A DNA stretch of 64,000 bases from Tubulanus polymorphus (Eukaryota; Nemertea; Palaeonemertea; Tubulaniformes; Tubulanidae), in assembly GCF_964204645.1 (NCBI RefSeq), contig NC_134026.1:20912650-20976649 (forward strand). Reading direction: 5' to 3'. How positions within the stretch are numbered: the stretch's first letter is position 1; each line of letters begins with the position of its first letter. Below are positions 3,001 to 56,700 of the stretch, piece after piece. The notes under the pieces are model-generated. The model was given only the letters and a program-made list of their open reading frames with translations. It was not told the origin of the DNA and searched no databases. The position numbers and the translations under genes are program-made.

Positions 3001-3846
3001 ATATGCTTATAAAATTTAAGCTCCTTTTTAGAATCATTAGCTTTGATATAATATTTGTGTTATGATAATGGTATATGTATTCTTTTAAGTGGATTTTCAT
3101 TCATTCATTGCGATAGTTTCTGATATATTTTCAATTCTTTCCGAAACCAATCCTGAACTGTGGAATGTCTCCTGAATTCTTTGACTCCATCCATCCAGTT
3201 TGGTAGCATGAATTGCTACATGTACAAATATTGGTCTGTAAAAAGTACATAAATATTTTGATTTTTGTAGACAAATAATAGGAGTCATAATAATGGTAGT
3301 AGTGGGAATAGTCACTCCAAAGCTTCCCGAATCGCAGAGGATTTATTCTTGTTTTACTGGTAAAAAGTCTATTGTACCATTAGATTTTACTTGTAAGTAT
3401 ATTTCCTTGGGAAGATTAGAGAAATTTTTATTCCAAGTCACTGTTCGTACAAGTTGGCCATACATATAATACGCGCGTTGATAATTGTGTATATAATGTA
3501 GCTGAGAATTGTGAGTTGGGTAAATAGATCTGAAAAATAATGGCTACATACGCGAGTGTCTTAGATGAAAATGCCTTTGATGTTTGTAAGGAACCATTCA
3601 TAGAGTACACTCGGGTCAATATGTAATGCTTTAGCCCTCGATCAAAATTGAATATTGAAAGTGTTTCTTTTTCTTTCAGATACAAACATTGGACTGTCTG
3701 TTTTAGCCGTATTTGGTGCTTGTGTTTTTACAATATTCTTTAAAACTATTTACCGGCGTTTGAGAGCTGAACAACAAGTTGCTGCTGATAAAATACTGGG
3801 CTATCCTGAACATGGAACAATTTATGGTCCCGTTAATTCTCGCTGA
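1..3846 (+). CDS. SLC49A3: SLC49A3 (MFSD7)-like major facilitator transporter, 3' part
   Basis: Partial gene; the 5' exons lie left of the window. Coding exons: <1-10, 763-839, 1173-1307, 1949-2065, 2160-2312, 2699-2856, 3271-3359, 3680-3846 (stop TGA 3844-3846), about 301 residues. All have AG/GT borders and phases that close; bases 1-10 end in one base of a Ser codon completed at 763. The peptide shows the FLVCR/SLC49 hallmarks: NPVGILIANIVSP, then SSVPPTPPTASAAE with EPFLKGLKK (the loop typical of MFSD7), CPRGYSD, FSGLCGALMVGCGILGAGL and a late helix EGTSGGLINMSGQIIGVIIM. Several hydrophobic segments fit the C-terminal half of a 12-helix MFS carrier in a membrane. Family members FLVCR1 and FLVCR2 carry heme or choline; the substrate of SLC49A3 is not settled, so none is assigned. 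Another SLC49 member is the main alternative. A TTAA-flanked MITE sits in the intron at 1584-1881. Confidence 0.88.
1584..1881. mobile_element. TTAA-flanked MITE (piggyBac-like), copy 1
   Basis: This 298-bp element has TTAA at both ends and inverted termini: TTAACCCTTTCAATGCATC on the left against CCCTGAGAGGGTTAA on the right. Inner inverted blocks CATCTACACTGCAGTG and CAGTGTAGATGCAC follow. TTAA duplication with CCCT termini is typical of piggyBac-type elements. It has no coding capacity and lies in a transporter intron. A related copy is at 54155-54449. Confidence 0.75.
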
Positions 3847-4408
3847 TACATTTTATCGTTTGATAATTTTCACTATGAATGTACCGGTACTTGTCTTACA
3901 ATCGAGACTCAAGATAAGACCAGGCTTACCGCTAGCTAGCTCATTAGAATTAGAAATATGTCATTAGATTCAGGCCATTTAGATTATTTCATTGTTGGCC
4001 AGGGCATATGGTACCATTGCAGAATGTAAAGTAGCTTATCCTAGCCTTAGCTTGGACTTATCTGTACTGTGAATCTGACCCCTTTTTCACAATCGAGATG
4101 TTGGACTTGATGGGACCAGCTTTCATTCTGACAACAGGACCAAGAAAACCTAGTCTAAACATGTAGTGAATGTGGGGAAGAGAGTGGCGTGAAGTTTGTT
4201 AACATTGTATCGATGGTGCTTGAATTTCTATGAATGAAATGCTGTATTTTTTATAGCGTTTATTAATATGATGACTTCCTGCTTAGATTTCATGTGTTTA
4301 GGATTATATAAAAACTACGCTATATGATTTACCTATATGAAGTCTTAAGGTGTGCTTACAAAAAATATGTCTGTAAGAATACTGGTTAGAATACCCATCG
4401 ACCTAATA

Positions 4409-4600
4409 CAGTGGTACCTTGGTAGAACGAACTTCGGGAGACCAGAAAATATGTTCGTTATAACGGATAGTTCATTGTATACCGATAGAACATTGTATAC
4501 AGTATGAAATGATTGAAATTTTCCTATTTGGGACAAAATTCTAGGTTTGTAATAACTGATAAATCGTTAAATCCGAGGACATTATAAGGAGGTTCCACTG
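4409..4600. mobile_element. MITE with CAGTG termini (pogo/Tc1-mariner-like)
   Basis: It begins CAGTGGTACCTTGG after TA and ends GGAGGTTCCACTG, with the internal words GTTCGTTATAACGG and TTCATTGTAT. Termini and the ATAACGAAC-type interior resemble pogo/Tigger-derived MITEs. The 3' TA is not preserved (CA). Confidence 0.6.
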
Positions 4601-4831
4601 CATGACTTATACGAATTTAGAATTGCGAGTACTGGGGGGACTATATTATGTCAAGTTTAGATCAAATGGGTGCTGGTATAGTTGTTGAACTCAAAATTCC
4701 AGTTTGTGTCGAGAAATTATGGGAGAATTGTTGATGCATATTCAGAATATGATCGCCAATGAATCATTAGTGTAGCCATGTCTTTGTACAACCATGTTTT
4801 AACTTAATTAAGTTAACTACTAACCTCGCAA

Positions 4832-4915
4832 AATAAACAAGAATTTTGTATTCAAGGATTAGATTGTATATATCTGTGTCTATGATGATAACATTTTATA
4901 CGTTGAGGTAATAAA
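4832..4915 (+). promoter_or_regulatory. Polyadenylation signals for the SLC49A3-like gene (candidates)
   Basis: AATAAA occurs at 4832-4837 and again at 4910-4915, about 1 kb downstream of the transporter stop codon on the same strand. Either could end the transcript. If so, the 3' UTR contains the MITE at 4409-4600. This rests on the motif and position only. Confidence 0.4.
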
Positions 4916-5195
4916 GTTGAAAGCTATATATTTATCTTATTTTACATAGTTATCTTGTAAACATTTCAGTTCAATGAGGGTTTTTTGCTGAAATAGATTC
5001 ATCAGTGCTTTAAGAACAGATATCCCTATTCTGCTTATGCAGGTATCAATCTGTAGTCTAAATACCTCTGTCGTCAAGACGATCAGCACTTGTTTTTAAT
5101 TATCGCCTGGTAATGTCTAATGTCTGGTGCTTGCAGTCCATGTCTGGAGCGAGGTTATGTTAAGCCTGATTAAGTGTATGGGATGGGGTTTGGGC

Positions 5196-5515
5196 ATCCT
5201 CTCACCGGCAAGGATTTGAACCAGATAGCATCAAAACTTGCTATGATACGAAACCCTAACCTGCAACAAAAGCCTGAGCGTGCAGCTTATATGGTGTCAT
5301 TATTAGCCAATCAGAAATCCTGTTTTGTTTTGGCGCACGTTTTTCATTTATAGTTCCTCCGTGAAATTACTTGGCGATTATATGAGCAATCTGATTGGTG
5401 CTGCAAGTTTTCGCGCAGCTAACCTGCGCATATACGTCCAGTGTGGCAGGGTTTCGCACCGTGGCCGAGTGTAGCGATGCCATCAGGTTCGAATCACTGC
5501 TGAGGGAGGATGAGG
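5196..5515. mobile_element. Foldback element with tRNA-like arms, copy 1
   Basis: The left arm (5196-5270) is an imperfect reverse complement of the right arm (5440-5515). The right arm on + reads GTGGCCGAGTGTAGCGATGC then CAGGTTCGAATCACTG, close to pol III A-box and B-box sequences of Leu/Ser-type tRNA genes. The copy at 39521-39845 has the same design, and 16910-17010 is one arm. Confidence 0.6.
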
Positions 5516-6388
5516 TTTTGGCAACAGATTGATCACTCCGTATACTTATGTTTGGTGTCGTCTGCACAGGAATACTTGAAATTCTACCAATTTGATGAAA
5601 ACCAAGAAAAAAAAAATTCTCGTAGATATTTTATCCTACAATGTATTCCAATTTTATTAATGAAATAGCGATGCATATTTTATACATTCTTTCGATTATA
5701 GAGACTCCCTCAATCCATTATTTTAGCTAATCAACCAACGCTTAGAAAAACTTTGAATAAACATAACTTTCCATTGGACAATAATAAATGAATTTGTTTA
5801 ACACATGGGTATACACACACACACTGAAGTGCCTGTGTTGATTTGTGTTCGACATCATTTGTCTACTGAAAACGTACACAATCATTGCATAAAATTGGTA
5901 ATGCAAAACACCGATTCCCTAAATACACTTATTGTGCACCGGTAGAACAGCGTAATGGCCACAAATATAAACAGCTAGACTTATAAACTAATAATACAGG
6001 TCCGATAGGATAGATACAATTTTCTGAGCTGGAATATTGTTTTTGCCGAACTTATCGAGTCATCAATTGATTTAATAGCTCAATAGGTGCGCTAGTTTAC
6101 TTACAAACTCTATATGAAGGGCTCGAAATTTCTTTAATAGGGGGAAAATACCGTTAGATCAACAACAAACGAATTGTTTAAAATGACAAAAAGAGAGAAC
6201 ATAAGGTGAATTCTACATGTATACATAAAGAGTACTAGGAGGTCAACTCTGCAGTAGTCGTAAGAATCATTGGAAATGTATGCATGGCTGCAGTGCCATC
6301 TTATTTCAACAAAATTTCAAATTTACATTCATGCGAAATTCCATCTGAAACTCCTTGCAGACTTCTGTAGAGTCAACGATCACTGATA

Positions 6389-6564
6389 CAGTAGAACTCG
6401 CTTAATTCAGATTTTTCAATCCGGATTTTCAGTTAATTCAGATGAAAAATTTAGTCCATTTCGCTTGGAACCATGACGTAAACTAATTATTCATAATTCA
6501 GATTTTACTTAATTCGGAGAAATCTGGGCAGGCCCTATTCATCCGAATGAAGTGAGTTCTATTG
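6389..6564. mobile_element. MITE with CAGTAGAACTC termini and TA duplication
   Basis: Left end TA-CAGTAGAACTCGCTTAATTC and right end GAATGAAGTGAGTTCTATTG-TA form inverted repeats of about 20 bp with a TA target duplication. AATTCAGAT recurs inside. It fits Tc1-mariner/pogo-derived MITEs; no coding potential. Confidence 0.7.
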
Positions 6565-6682
6565 TATTTTCTTTAATTCGATAGTAATCATTAATTGAAA
6601 TTATTCTAACAAATTATACACGGCACAGGAACCATATTCAGGACCATATTCAATTCTCGGAAATATCCTTACATCATGTTCG

Positions 6683-7680
6683 GTTGAATGGTGCCTAGTT
6701 TTTGTATACACCGAAATATAACTACATTATATTACATCGTACATCATACGTTCACATAAGGCTTTCCCCATTCGCTAAAAACCACACATGAATCATTTAA
6801 AAAAATTATACATCAATGGATGTTCTTTCTATGCAGAACATAAACATTCTAAAAAATCATTAGGTTTTATATCTTTTTTATATCGATTAAAAAAATGGCA
6901 CCGAAGGATTTTACTTTCACGTTTAGAGACCGATTTAGAGTGAACAAATAGAACCACTGGACAAAAAATATATAATTTTCAATTTTATTTCAATTTCTTT
7001 CGATAACAGAAACAAGTTCTGAACTTTGTTTCCCTCAAATTTAGACGCTTCGATTAAAATTGAGCCGCGCGTTGCTGAGACAGATTCGGCGAAAAATAGA
7101 TTTCTTTCCATGTGAACGCGCGTGCAAGCAGTACAGGTATTAGCGACTGTAATGGTTCAATGGTGTCTAGTTTTTGATTGCACCAAAATATAATCATATA
7201 TACATTGTACGCACATTTAAATATGGTTTTTCCCATCAAGTTGGTTACGAAAAGTGAAATGAACGGAAACATGCGCAATTTGTCAAAGACTACGCATGAA
7301 TCGTCCAAAAAAAATCATACATCCACCGATGTTCTTTCTGCGCAGAACACAAACATATTAATAATTTATTGGATTTTTAAATCTATTTCGTATCTATTAA
7401 AAGACAGTTATGGCACCGAAGAAGGATTTTACTTTCACATTACGAGACTGATTTTAGAGTGAATAAATAGAACCACTGGACAAAAACATAATTTCCAATA
7501 TTGAAAACCTATCGTTTAACGACAATAAAAACTAGTTTGTAACTTTTTTTGCTGGAATTGAGATGCATCGAGTAAAAACGAGCCACTGCATCTGAGATAT
7601 ACCGAGATAGATTCGACAAGAAATGATTTTCATCACGAGCACGTACATGCATATGGCACAGATATTGGGGACTGAAGCGA
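6683..7680. repeat. Diverged tandem duplication of a ~470-520-bp unit
   Basis: Unit 1 (about 6683-7150) and unit 2 (about 7154-7680) share ordered blocks: TTGAATGGTGCCTAGTTTTT / TTCAATGGTGTCTAGTTTTT; ATGTTCTTTCTATGCAGAAC / GATGTTCTTTCTGCGCAGAA; ATGGCACCGAA; GGATTTTACTTTCAC; ATAGAACCACTGGACAAAAA; and a GAGCCRC...GAGAYAGATTCG block. The copies differ by substitutions and small indels, so the event is old. The units may be 3' UTR of NDRG (minus strand), because they hold several TTTATT words, but this is inference. Confidence 0.8.
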
Positions 7681-43731: not shown

Positions 43732-44508
43732 CACAGGGGTTTGGCGATGGGCTTGGATTTTATTTCCGGGTTGTTGATAATCTCGCGAGAATGGCGCTAA
43801 ATATGAACTGCGAATAAATTCAAAATATCACGGAAATACCTTGTGTTTATATTGTTGATTTATCCGCTATAAAGTTTCGATAAACAATTGGTCGTTAAGA
43901 ATCATTATCAGACGGTCGTCACGCTACTATATAAAATAACAAGGGATGAAACGCCTTCAGAGTTGTGCCAGCCAGAAAGTTGGGACAGTCACGTGACATT
44001 CTGATGATGTCATCACATTTAAAACTTTAACATGAAAAGTTAACATATTCACAGACCGATATCAATTGTCAGATTATGATTCATATGAAATTAATAACTT
44101 ATAAAGAATAAATTATGATCAAATATATAATTCATAGAAAAAAATGCATTTGAATGTAAGTTATTCTCAAATATTTTTCGTATCATAGTTTCCATCTTAG
44201 ATGCTTCGGGTTTGCATTCAGTCAAATAAGAAGCGTGACTGTCACGTGACTGTCCCAACTTTCTGGCTGGCACGAATTGAACTGCGTTTCATCCCTTGTG
44301 ATTTTATATAGTCAAGCGTGACGACTGTTTGATGATGATCCTTAATGACCAATTGTTTATCGGAACTTTATAGCGGATAAATAAACAGTATAAACACAAG
44401 GTATTTCTATGATATTTTGAATTTATTTGCAGTTCATATTTAGCGCCATTCTCGCAAGATTATCAACAACCCGGAAATTAAATCCAAGCCCATCGCCAAA
44501 CCCCTGTG
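43732..44508. mobile_element. Long-inverted-repeat element, CACAGGGG ends, 8-bp target duplication
   Basis: Arms 43732-43998 and 44240-44508 are near-identical reverse complements (about 268 bp) around a 240-bp spacer. The ends are CACAGGGGTTTGGCG and CGCCAAACCCCTGTG. The flanks carry an exact direct repeat ATTTTGTT (43724-43731 and 44509-44516). An 8-bp duplication fits hAT-like transposition. No transposase frame is present. It shares its CACAGGGG ends with 53438-53587. Confidence 0.85.
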
Positions 44509-51341: not shown

Positions 51342-52865
51342 TCAATCGAAATAATCTTCGATATCGATATCGGGATGAAGCAAATCTTCGCCGTAACGAC
51401 TCAAATCCATCTGATTCAAAATCAGATTTTCGAAAGTTTCTTCCAGGTCGGTTTCGCCGATCAGGATAGCGCCTTGCATACGCCCGTCGTGCATGACGGC
51501 CTTGACGTATTCCCTACCCTCTGTCGTCCGCAACAAAACGTGATAATCGTTTCCCAAATCTTGCGCGTTAAATTTACCCAACAATACGACTTTATACCCG
51601 AAAAACTGCGTGACGTGCGTGAATATTTCGAAACAAAAATCGAGCGTCATTTCTCGAATGCGGCCGCGTAGATCGGCGTCGATACATTTCCCGGCGTATA
51701 TCCCCATTTGTCGTGCTTGAGTCCACAGTTTCATTTGTAACCAATGCTTCGCCGGTTCCCATGTCGGCGCGCACAAATCACCAGCCGCGTAAACATCCGC
51801 GATACTCGTCCGCATTTTATCGTCAACCATTAACCCTCCGTCGGCGGAAATGGTGAAATTATTCGATTTCGCGAACGGGTCTCGGTTCGGCTTGACGCCG
51901 GTGGCGCTGACGACGAAATCGCAGCCGTATATTTTACCGTTTGTAAGTTCGACATAAACCGGCCACCAATCGGTCCGATCACTCGGATTCGAAGTGACCA
52001 GGAAATTGCGCAGGTTTTCCTCACACATAAACTCCGATTGGGTCAAAATTCTCCGAACCTCGACTTTGTATTCGACGTGAACCGAACGCTGCTCGTCGCT
52101 GAGTCCTTTCAACTCGTAACCCGTATGCCAATCGGGACCGAGCGCGCTTCCTTTCACGTCCTCGTTCGCGCTCGTCTCCCCGCCGGACACGACGTACTTT
52201 TCGCGCTTAATCGGTCGAAAACGCGCCGTCGCTTTCCGCTCGTTCAAACTGGCGAGGAAAAATTCTGCGGCGCCGACGTCGATGAATGTCGCCGTAATCG
52301 ATTCGTCCTTGATTGCCCAGACGATCTCGACATTTTCCAACTCGTAGACGAGCTCGGTCGCTATGCCGCCGTTACCGACGATAACGACGCGCCGAGCGTC
52401 GGTTAGTTTCCGTTGAAACGTCCGCACGCTTTCCGTATCCCGGATTCCTAAAACATACGGATTATCTTCAACGACTATCTTGGGTCGTCCGCCCGCGCAT
52501 AGGCATAACTTCCGATAGCGATAAACCGAGTCATTGTCCGTGTATATCTTATGACCGACGGAGTCTAAGTCTGTGACTACGGCATGGATTACTTTCACGT
52601 TCGGGTAATTCGATTCCAGGTAGGACGAAGGTTTTTCTTCAACGTCGAATTCTTCGAGCACTTTCGTTAGTTGTTTGTAATTGATGACGGCTTTGATCAG
52701 AGGCGAGGCCGAAATTAACAATATCCGCGATTCCGTTTGCAGAAATGATAGGCTCTGTGCGCATGTAACTCCGGCGATGCCTCCACCCACGACGATAAGG
52801 TCGAAACAGGAATCCTCTTTGGACGCTGCCTCCTCACTGCCGGCTTGGTCGGCGGCGTCCATCAT
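51342..52865 (-). CDS. PYROXD1: Pyridine nucleotide-disulphide oxidoreductase domain protein 1 (single coding exon)
   Basis: An uninterrupted frame of 507 codons, matching the ~500-residue length of PYROXD1. It is a class I FAD/NAD(P)H flavoprotein; the known vertebrate protein is a reductase linked to redox protection of the tRNA ligase complex and to muscle disease. Visible motifs: the FAD dinucleotide fold VVGGGIAGVTCAQ (GGGIAG at 27-32), SPLIKAV plus LEEFDVEE, KLCLCAGGRPK, NPYVLGIRDT, the NAD(P)H fold VVIVGNGGIATELVYE (GNGGIA at 164-169), SATGVKPNRDPF and the second FAD contact ADVYAAGDLC. The CxxxxC redox pair of glutathione reductase-type enzymes is absent, as is usual for PYROXD1. Two ATGs are adjacent; the first gives M-M-D-A-A. 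A splice acceptor ending at 52895 (minus-strand reading ...TTTTTAG) suggests an intron in the 5' UTR. Vertebrate orthologues have many coding introns; this copy has none and is visibly more GC-rich than its surroundings. Confidence 0.95.
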   Translation of the reverse strand: MMDAADQAGSEEAASKEDSCFDLIVVGGGIAGVTCAQSLSFLQTESRILLISASPLIKAVINYKQLTKVLEEFDVEEKPSSYLESNYPNVKVIHAVVTDLDSVGHKIYTDNDSVYRYRKLCLCAGGRPKIVVEDNPYVLGIRDTESVRTFQRKLTDARRVVIVGNGGIATELVYELENVEIVWAIKDESITATFIDVGAAEFFLASLNERKATARFRPIKREKYVVSGGETSANEDVKGSALGPDWHTGYELKGLSDEQRSVHVEYKVEVRRILTQSEFMCEENLRNFLVTSNPSDRTDWWPVYVELTNGKIYGCDFVVSATGVKPNRDPFAKSNNFTISADGGLMVDDKMRTSIADVYAAGDLCAPTWEPAKHWLQMKLWTQARQMGIYAGKCIDADLRGRIREMTLDFCFEIFTHVTQFFGYKVVLLGKFNAQDLGNDYHVLLRTTEGREYVKAVMHDGRMQGAILIGETDLEETFENLILNQMDLSRYGEDLLHPDIDIEDYFD

Positions 52866-53745
52866 GGCAGCTTTTCACGTCAGCTCTTTCAGACCTAAAA
52901 ATATCAAAATTTCTATTCGGCATAAGTGTTAAGTGATAGGGCTTTTCTGGTGGTGGTTGACAGTATAAAAATTGTTATGCATGTCGTCTCACTAAGTAAA
53001 TAATCATGATAATGTAATTGAATTCTGAATTGAATTGGTCTGGACAGAGCAGAGCCGAGGGGTCTTTGCTTTAAAACTCAGACTCTCATCAAAAACACGA
53101 ACGACACCCAATTGCAACGCAATCTATTTTGGATTGCGATATATTACCTCGAAATGGGTGTGTAAAACCTCTTGTCATTTAGTTTAAATCGGTGATTCAG
53201 GCTATGAAACGTTTCATCTCGTATAGTTTCACTGCTCACCGCCAAACATTTGTGGCAGCACCTTCCGGTGTATAGAATTGATATATTATGACAAGTGCTT
53301 CAGCTTCTTTCTTCCGCATTTTATAGGATTTCATTCGCGTGAAGTGTATTTATTCCTCGAGGTAAACGTGCTATTAAAAGCTCCGTATAAACATGGCATG
53401 ATGTCGAATGTTGTCAAATGAGAATAATTGTTTTATTCACAGGGGCTCGTTACGATAGCTGGGGGTCCAAAATCAAAGATTTGACCCAGTATCCTAGGTA
53501 CCACCTATTTTTTTTTATAGGTGGTACCTAGGATACTGGGTCAAATCTTTGATTTTGGACCCCCAGCTATCGTAACGAGCCCCTGTGGTTTTATTAGGTT
53601 TCATTAACAAATTCAATTCAATGATTTATATTACTACTCTGCCTGACTGATGCAAGAATTTACAGTTTACAATTTGCCTTTAACCATGCATTTAAAGTTT
53701 TGGTGCAAGGAACTTAAAGCTAATGCCTATTTCTATTTTTAGGTG
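52866..53745. promoter_or_regulatory. Divergent 5' region between PYROXD1 and RMND1
   Basis: The start codons are 880 bp apart on opposite strands, so both promoters must be here. Splice acceptors just before both ATGs (exon starts at 52894 minus and 53743 plus) imply non-coding first exons. A possible RMND1 donor is CTCGAG|GTAAAC at 53361. A perfect-hairpin transposable element (53438-53587) occupies what would be the RMND1 5' UTR intron. No TATA box was clear. Confidence 0.5.
53438..53587. mobile_element. Perfect 71-bp inverted repeat (hairpin MITE) with 8-bp target duplication
   Basis: Arms 53438-53508 and 53517-53587 are exact reverse complements around an 8-base T loop. The ends are CACAGGGGCTCG and CGAGCCCCTGTG. 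GTTTTATT directly flanks it on both sides (53430-53437 and 53588-53595). It is non-coding and sits between PYROXD1 and RMND1. Perfect arms suggest a recent insertion or gene conversion. Confidence 0.9.
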
Positions 53746-56700
53746 ATGGCATTTGCATGTTGTTGTAAACGAGCTGTATTTGGCATTCTTTCGAGACAAA
53801 GTATCTCCAGTTATCGGTTACAATCAATTCATCGATTAGCGATAAATCGTAGAATTCACTTGCCGTCAACGGCAAAAATTTTAGAACCATTGTCGCCAAC
53901 TGAGATTAATCAAATCGGGATAAAATATACTCGAACTTTATGGAAATATTCTACGACAGCATGGCATAGTTTTAGCAGATGTAATATTGCGTTGTCGAGA
54001 GCGTACGCTTCCAGAAAAGGGGAGGAACAAAATCTCGAAGGCATTCAGAAACATGTCTCGCCACTTTCGACGAGGAGAGCTGCTCGAAAAAAGTCTAGTA
54101 GAGATGGCGGTGCTGTGAAAAGGGTCGGTATTGAATCGAAAAGAACTCTTCTTGTTTACCCTTTCAGTGTATCTGCACTGCAGTGCAGTGTATTAATCGC
54201 TGATGGACATTGCTTTAGTATGCTGCACCGCGGTGTAATGTAATTGATAATTAGCTTTTATCTCTTGAAAGATGGCAGGCTTACCTGTCAAAAAAAGTTA
54301 AATATTATTAACTAATGATACATCACACTGTGATGTAGATGCACTAAAGCGATATGCCCGTTATTCAACGCACTGGGGTGGAATTTCTTTTAAATTTCAA
54401 ATTTAAATCCAGTACTTGTGGGTATCAATTTGTCAGCACTGAAAGGGTCTCTTTTTCAAACTTGCAGTACAGATTTTTTCAAGAATAAGAATGGAAAGGG
54501 AAAATGAAAGAAATTGTTATCATTAATGAATGTATTGCAATCTTCTCATTCAAGGAATATATGGTCAGCGCCTATTCAATAGCGGAAGAGTGCGATCTCG
54601 AAGGTCTGATGAAAGAAATTGAAACACAAGGTCTTTACGCGTTATGTCCACTGCCAGGTGAGCTTCGAAATTCCATTGAGCTGATTATTTGCTTCGGTTT
54701 CTACTCGAGTACCCCTGTATAATTTTTCTGGGTATGTTTTTTATGCGTTCTAATACAGATACGAAAGATGTTCTGCATCTGAATGCCATTTATAAAGTTG
54801 ATGATGAAACGAGGGAGATATTCATCTTTAGGTGAGGTTAAGTCTCATGCCATTACAAAATATCTTGTTGTTGGTGCTGATGAGCTTTAGATAGGAACCA
54901 GGGGCGGATGCAGGATTTTCAAGGGGTCCTACGCTGGTTATCCCTAAGAAAAATTTTAAGGAATAGTCATGCAATTGTGTATTCTGAGTGTTGTTAATGT
55001 TTAATTTTCAGAGAAGGGTCGGCTGTATTTTGGAATGTACCCTATGATGAAGTGAGTTTCGTTTTCAGGCCATAAAACCAACTTTGTGAAATATCCCCAT
55101 TGCCTGAAATGGAATGAAATGTTGTTGACCGTCTTTTTCTTCCAGGAAATGGAAGTTTTGAAATTCTTGCACAAATATCTTGAGGATCCATACAGTCTGA
55201 AATTAGTGAATGGCGAAGCTGAAGAATTGACTTTCAAATATACTGAGTAAGTGTAAGGATAAAGTTTAGTGTGTACTTTCCGGTGAAGTGGGCCTGGTTC
55301 CCTTGACCCTAAGTTTTTGTATTGTTTTTCTAGTACGCCAACGAAACTAGATGGAGACGAAATACACATACACATCTCTGGTTCCAAATCAGAAGAGAAC
55401 AGTCAGGCGATACAGCACCAGAAATACGCTTTCTCAAATGCTTTATCTTTATCAGGTAAAGAGAAAAAGCTGCGAATCCGTTTATACAGGTTATGGGTCA
55501 TCCTTAAAAACCAGCCAAGTTACATATACGTAATGTTGTTATGACCAGTATATTTTTCACTATTCAAGTCAAGCTTGGAATATGGGAAGCGTCACTTGAA
55601 AAGTATGTCGCTTCTATCGAATGGGTTACCGAGGTAAGGCTTAACCGTGAATGTCAGAAAGCAATTGTGTATAAGTTTCTATATGACACTACGTATTGCT
55701 AATGAGTAGAAGTGTATTTCTTAAGGATTTGAAAAATGGGAAAAGCATTCGCATGACAAAACCGCAAGTATTGATAAAGACCGGGGAGCTTTTTACATTG
55801 AGGTAAGGTGATCGATTCTTGTGATTCGAATGCAGCCATAGCGTCAAATGAGAAACTTTCTGTCTTATTGTAGGCATTTGATCAATCTGAGCTCTGATTT
55901 GCTGGACACTCCGGATTTCTACTGGGATAGAGAGGATTTGGAGAGTTTGTACCAGAGTACGTGTTCCCAATTGAACATCAATAGAAGAACGATGGTATGT
56001 ATCATGTATCCTGAGATAGCTGCTTCAAATGCAGTTTAATTTTGTATCTTTACACAGAAAAATTATTCTTAATCGTGATTTTTTTTCAGGTGATGAATGA
56101 AAAGTTGAACTATTGTGTTGAATTAACACAGCTTGTCAGTGACCATCTGAATCAGGATCATCAGTCTCGTCTGGAATGGATTATCATTATTCTTATCCTT
56201 GTTGAGGTACATCCTGATAATACTGTTGACCCAGCGTAATTCAAATGTTGATCTTATCTAATTGAGATCTCGATTTTTCTCCTATTCCGACAAATCACCC
56301 AAACTTTTTAAGTGCCCTTTTGATTATGAGATTCAGGTCTTTCTGTAAAAGGAAGGCACGAGTTTGTCAATATTCTTGGAAAAGGTTTTTTCCGGAAACG
56401 ACCGACTGGCATGACTGTCCTTACTCATTTGGCCCAAAAATATCTGGCAAGACCCTCGGATATTGTCACTTTGTCCTAGCCTAAAACAGAATTCATTTTG
56501 TTGATCTCAAATGATCAGAGTCTACTTTCAAATAATACTTCTATATTTTCTCCATGAGAAATGGTTGATGACCCAATCTTACCTGAAGTGTTGAGGCAGC
56601 ATCTACTGCAGTACTTCATAACACGTTGGATAAAATAGTTCAATTATCTCTGGTTGGTCTCTTCTCTTCCTCCAGGTTATCTTCGAGTGCATACACTACG

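Follow-up and report, generated by a model that had tools for sequence, protein, structure and literature searches.

Within the P superfamily of transposable elements, Galileo of Drosophila and the P-MITEs of Anopheles gambiae have target-site duplications (TSDs) of 7–8 bp or 8 bp, with non-autonomous copies that are numerous and differ in size (PMC4168063, PMC1562414), and Galileo is known for its long foldback terminal repeats (PMC4168063). Published target motifs are GTCCGGAC for the P element and GTNCGNAC for hobo (PMC3276498). Merlin elements have been described with 8–9-bp TSDs, terminal inverted repeats (TIRs) of 24–462 bp and a conserved terminal 5'-GG (PMC8101967). On a smaller scale, Made1 is an 80-bp palindromic MITE that lies behind hsa-mir-548 (PMC1784062).

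The element described here is a 150-bp hairpin at positions 53438–53587 of the window (i.e. the whole stretch of 64,000 nucleotides that was analysed, C2:20912650–20976649), and it resembles each of these systems in part. As with Galileo and the P-MITEs of Anopheles gambiae, the TSDs of its family are of the 8-bp class and its non-autonomous copies vary in size; foldback anatomy is shared with Galileo, and the clan of related families to which the hairpin belongs has a TSD preference close to that of the P superfamily. The family departs from that superfamily in its TIR, CACAGGGGCTCG, and in having ends with no P transposase tied to them. In the Anopheles P-MITEs, furthermore, short TIRs are kept on either side of a central region; the present family consists of palindromes almost end to end. 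Made1 is likewise built of two terminal repeats and a loop of a few bases, giving a nearly perfect palindrome and a stable RNA hairpin if transcribed; however, it is Hsmar-derived (mariner type), in contrast to the 8-bp TSDs and 71-bp arms of the hairpin family. Merlin agrees in TSD class, in a TIR length range that includes the one seen here and in the presence of Merlin genes in this genome, but a terminal 5'-GG would be expected and the ends of the hairpin family start CA, which excludes it. There is also a likeness to hAT MITEs, which make TSDs of 8 bp and prefer GTNNNNAC-like targets (PMC3276498).

Location and anatomy of the hairpin

The hairpin lies within an 877-bp gap between two genes arranged head to head, PYROXD1 and RMND1. 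It stands 573 bp from the start of the PYROXD1 open frame, whose start codon is at 52865 on the minus strand. The surrounding genes were placed as follows.

51342–52865, minus strand: PYROXD1 homologue, an intact single open frame of 507 aa (E 5.5e-183 to the solved PYROXD1 6zk7; Pyr_redox_2)
53743–54243, plus strand: presumed first RMND1 coding exon, an open frame with a plausible 3' splice site at ~53742 and no Pfam match
55842–56039, plus strand: RMND1 exon, end of DUF155 (PF02582; E 2.2e-13)

The element itself is composed of these parts.

53430–53437, unstranded: left TSD GTTTTATT, read directly, an exact 8-bp duplication
53438–53508, plus strand: left arm, 71 bp, starting CACAGGGGCTCGTTACGATAGC and equal to the terminal 71 bp of a ~1.15-kb family
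53509–53516, unstranded: loop TTTTTTTT, eight T, read directly
53517–53587, minus strand: right arm, 71 bp, the exact reverse complement of the left arm
53588–53595, unstranded: right TSD GTTTTATT, an exact 8-bp duplication

The two arms are complementary at 71/71 nt (100%) with 8 nt between them, and the 150 bp, being nothing other than arms and loop, have no coding capacity. Folded as RNA, the sequence is predicted to form a single 71-bp stem of −146 kcal/mol, as against −39.5 ± 3.7 kcal/mol for shuffled sequences (z = −28.9; 0/200 shuffles as good). A perfect 71-bp inverted repeat is no chance event at such a size. The sequence-only reading had described a perfect 71-bp hairpin with an eight-T loop and an exact 8-bp duplication, and direct reading together with comparison of the arms bore this out. 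The boundaries of the hairpin are the termini of a repeated family that has other 8-bp duplications at other sites.

Relatives elsewhere in the genome

The 267.8-Mb assembly (77 contigs) was searched with the 150-bp hairpin, and two kinds of relatives were recovered, short palindromes and long foldbacks. Besides the window copy, at least 10 short palindromes of 134–167 bp (L007–L014, L017 and L037) have the common ends and exact 8-bp duplications, which are all mutually different and lie directly outside CACAGGGG/CCCCTGTG; additional short copies are damaged or have imperfect duplications. Thirteen long copies of 1133–1158 bp were cut out, all except one with exact, differing 8-bp duplications (12/13). 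Their pairwise identity is mostly 97–99%, with L024 and L027 more diverged (93–97%), and they are foldbacks end to end: L023 (1156 bp) matches its own reverse complement over its full length at 84%, and its longest stop-free stretch is 86 codons. Genome-wide, the 22-bp end CACAGGGGCTCGTYACGATAGC has 103 exact matches (56 + 47), on at least 11 contigs, compared with 0 for the reversed control.

Terminal inverted repeats, a TSD of fixed length at each copy, multiple dispersed copies and a lack of coding capacity are thus found together, as in a MITE. The earlier claim had been that the hairpin is a transposable element flanked by 8 bp of duplicated target sequence, to be given up if no other copies existed; that objection falls because short and long relatives, each with duplications of their own, were found, and the claim stands. 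Our main reading, to which we assign a probability of roughly 0.93, is that the hairpin is a non-autonomous palindromic MITE, young and cut from the ~1.15-kb foldback family, whose transposase most likely belongs to the P superfamily. The element is genuine, though of an ordinary kind.

Sibling families have ends in common with the hairpin family. Excluding the latter, CACAGGGGCTCGTR occurs 372 times in the genome versus 0 for the control, and the siblings bearing it (e.g. L106–L118) comprise short palindromes of ~150–180 bp and longer foldbacks. A third family of the clan is represented inside the window; at 92–100% identity, its near-full-length copies across the genome number at least 38.

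43732–44508, plus strand: second element of the same terminal type, 777 bp, ends CACAGGGGTTTGGCG, TSD ATTTTGTT, self-complementary over its whole length and a near-complete palindrome

Origin of the short form

Both arms of the window copy agree with the long-family ends at 71/71 positions. Among the long copies, the window arm is matched 71/71 by 13/13 left and 9/13 right ends (22/26) and by the rest at 70/71; this share of perfect ends is biased upwards and is an upper estimate, since the long copies were retrieved by their similarity to the window copy. The short copies vary mainly at the centre: next to the outer repeat comes the A/T-rich TATAAAAAAAGAAAAG, and how much of it is retained differs from copy to copy. 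As the window copy is the outer 71 bp of the long family, the best reading is that it derives by central deletion from a family that was recently active. Its eight-T loop is read as what is left of the A/T run that follows the terminal repeat, and presumably marks the deletion junction; the basis for this is that the centres of other copies are not alike.

The simplest reading of the short forms would be repeated central deletion of foldbacks, followed by transposition of some of the products. Alternatively, the short copies could be a single amplified MITE lineage with a slipping centre. Under repeated central deletion, loss of the ~1-kb centre would have joined the two outer terminal repeats of a ~1.15-kb foldback, as is suggested by short-copy centres that nearly all differ. 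A transposase supplied in trans recognised the ends CACAGGGGCTCGT... and excised an element, and insertion at GTTTTATT with an 8-bp stagger duplicated those 8 bp, as the anatomy shows. The identity of the arms would follow from near-invariant family ends and a young insertion. With a clean young palindromic MITE and its longer relatives at hand, the route from a long foldback to a short perfect hairpin becomes traceable in one genome.

Target-site preference and superfamily

Over 69 insertions, with TSDs drawn from the hairpin family and its sibling families, the 8-bp TSDs show a weak palindromic preference, GTYnnRAC. The bias amounts to 38% for G1/C8 (p 7e-8), 49% for T2/A7 (p 2e-5) and 70% for Y3/R6 (p 1e-6), with no bias at the centre. 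The GTCCGGAC-like preference of the P superfamily is seen over these 69 sites, which are partly compatible with hobo too. Wherever the TSD is exact, it fixes the terminus of the element as CACAGGGG.

Because no autonomous element was found, the superfamily had to be inferred, and from the ends and target sites we would give P slightly better than even odds, hAT about one chance in four and any other superfamily about one in five. P appears most likely in view of the 8-bp GTYnnRAC TSD, the 5'-CA ends and the Galileo-like foldback anatomy. Counting against it, those P elements in the genome whose ends can be placed start CAGGGA, not CACAGGGG.

Mobilisation of the same MITE by a hAT rather than a P transposase is a serious but clearly less probable alternative. 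Comparable TSDs are also made by hAT elements (hobo GTNCGNAC, PMC3276498), the GT....AC portion of the preference observed here fits hAT as well, hAT genes are plentiful in the genome (79 dimer-domain matches), and one hAT family in it starts CAGGGGCGGATCCAG. However, TSD positions 3 and 6 are biased to Y and R, where hobo has N; the TSD-defined end is CACAGGGG, not CAGGGG, in every exact-TSD copy; and 0/11 hAT loci have these ends. Elements of the hAT type have a CAGNG end, whereas the TSDs of the hairpin family place CACAGGGG at that boundary.

A broader proposal, which we regard as doubtful, would take in the whole clan: palindromic transposons of 150 bp–1.2 kb, self-complementary as whole elements, with CACAGGGG ends, a P-like target preference and a putative transposase, in which central deletion and arm homogenisation would repeatedly generate short perfect palindromes. 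The RMND1-adjacent copy would be one of these, and might be read as dsRNA.

Search for the transposase

Among the P, hAT, MULE and Merlin loci read, no transposase gene was found between hairpin-family ends. Within the stretches read, none of 10 of the 20 PF21787 P loci (L057–L066) has CACAGGGGCTCG ends, and no transposase lies between such ends at eleven hAT loci (L067–L077) or at five MULE and three Merlin loci (L078–L085). For P, the gene looked for was a related transposase with a THAP and an RNase H-like domain; the genome also has KDZ/Zisupton matches, which lie outside the set of loci read. Single-ended copies (L037–L056), which were read for longer elements, gave only nested, truncated or non-coding forms, and a literature search on the end sequence CACAGGGG returned nothing relevant.

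At L054, positions 101–2377 (2277 bp) have the family ends and an exact TSD, CGACAGAC, around an unrelated, non-palindromic interior in which every open frame is shorter than 90 codons. L078 contains a MULE-type transposase frame within 3131 bp (3659–6789) bounded by near-identical inverted ends GGGTCATACTAAACACC and exact 8-bp duplications AGTAAGTC; a separate sibling end is also present there. L085 has the unrelated CACAGGGGCTTCG.

One sibling locus, L126, was considered as the autonomous partner on account of a THAP match 684 bp inside a sibling end (C1:11711140), and was rejected for its disturbed context. The sibling foldback arm stops after 364 bp, and the sequence beyond it, where the THAP frame stands, is AT-rich and disturbed and carries odd open frames; the other copy of this THAP gene (C4:15484688) is 2.8 kb from a P RNase H match (C4:15487485), and the sequence upstream is not common to the two. 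For these reasons L126 does not settle the superfamily; its THAP frame beyond the sibling arm is suggestive. Positions 375–2001 of L126 (C1:11711504–11713130) are AT-rich (14–30% G+C from ~900 on), with frames that are weakly poxvirus VLTF3-like (E 0.0065), THAP and membrane-helix-like; the stretch resembles a nested insertion that may derive from a virus. On C4, two copies of the L126 THAP gene in divergent orientation and the P-element RNase H match fall within 5.5 kb (C4:15482201–15487673), in what is likely a P-element locus.

Age and arm identity

The sequence-only reading had called the hairpin either very young or maintained by conversion. Its youth was upheld, as the arms equal the terminal 71 bp of long copies, most of which are 97–99% alike. 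Conversion proved needless for the window copy, which is identical to the ends of its own family and therefore does not require it. Given a divergence of ~1–2% between long copies and their near-invariant ends, identical 71-bp arms would be expected in a young insertion.

If arm-to-arm gene conversion kept the arms of the hairpin identical, the element may be older than it appears, an explanation we consider unlikely. Consistent with conversion, the arms of a long copy show 0–1 mismatch over their outer 100 bp (two copies have a single 2-base gap in addition), against a difference of ~8% between the inner arms, though the copies themselves are 98–99% alike. Moreover, below position 450 there are 37 informative sites, at which L023 has different bases in its two arms, and at 27 of these L027 carries the variant of one arm, the right, on both arms; L027 may, however, retain an ancestral palindrome instead. 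The older short copies L011, L013, L017, L018 and L019 are unhomogenised, with 5–11 arm mismatches in 62 bp, and arms are therefore not kept identical as a rule. Conversion within the long family is possible; for the window copy we prefer a young insertion with family-identical ends. As an observation on the long copies, L027 (201–1356) is a long foldback with nearly identical arms (444/450), as against the ~8% difference in its sister copies, which hints at arm-to-arm conversion or at an ancestral palindrome that was near-perfect.

Possible RNA role and assembly

Placement of the hairpin in a 5' UTR intron of RMND1 is presumed and depends on where RMND1 transcription starts; a bidirectional promoter or a spacer fits the gap equally. 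If transcribed through, the hairpin would give a long perfect stem. That it is transcribed in the RMND1 pre-mRNA and yields siRNA or miRNA-like products, in the manner of Made1 and hsa-mir-548, seems to us quite improbable. The predicted RNA stem has no mismatch and is very stable, only 155 bp separate the hairpin from the presumed first coding exon of RMND1 downstream of it, and a precedent exists in the Made1 MITEs that gave rise to human hsa-mir-548 (PMC1784062). Against this, the 5' UTR intron is itself a presumption, and any product would lack specificity, given that about a hundred ends elsewhere are nearly identical. No Rfam match was found at the hairpin. The hairpin can be accounted for without any RNA function, and a function for RMND1 or PYROXD1 would be hypothetical.

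Lastly, foldback artefacts can produce perfect palindromes, but the chance that this one was assembled from a chimeric inverted read is negligible, since its boundaries are the ends of a repeat family with exact 8-bp duplications at many other places and an artefact would not stop there.
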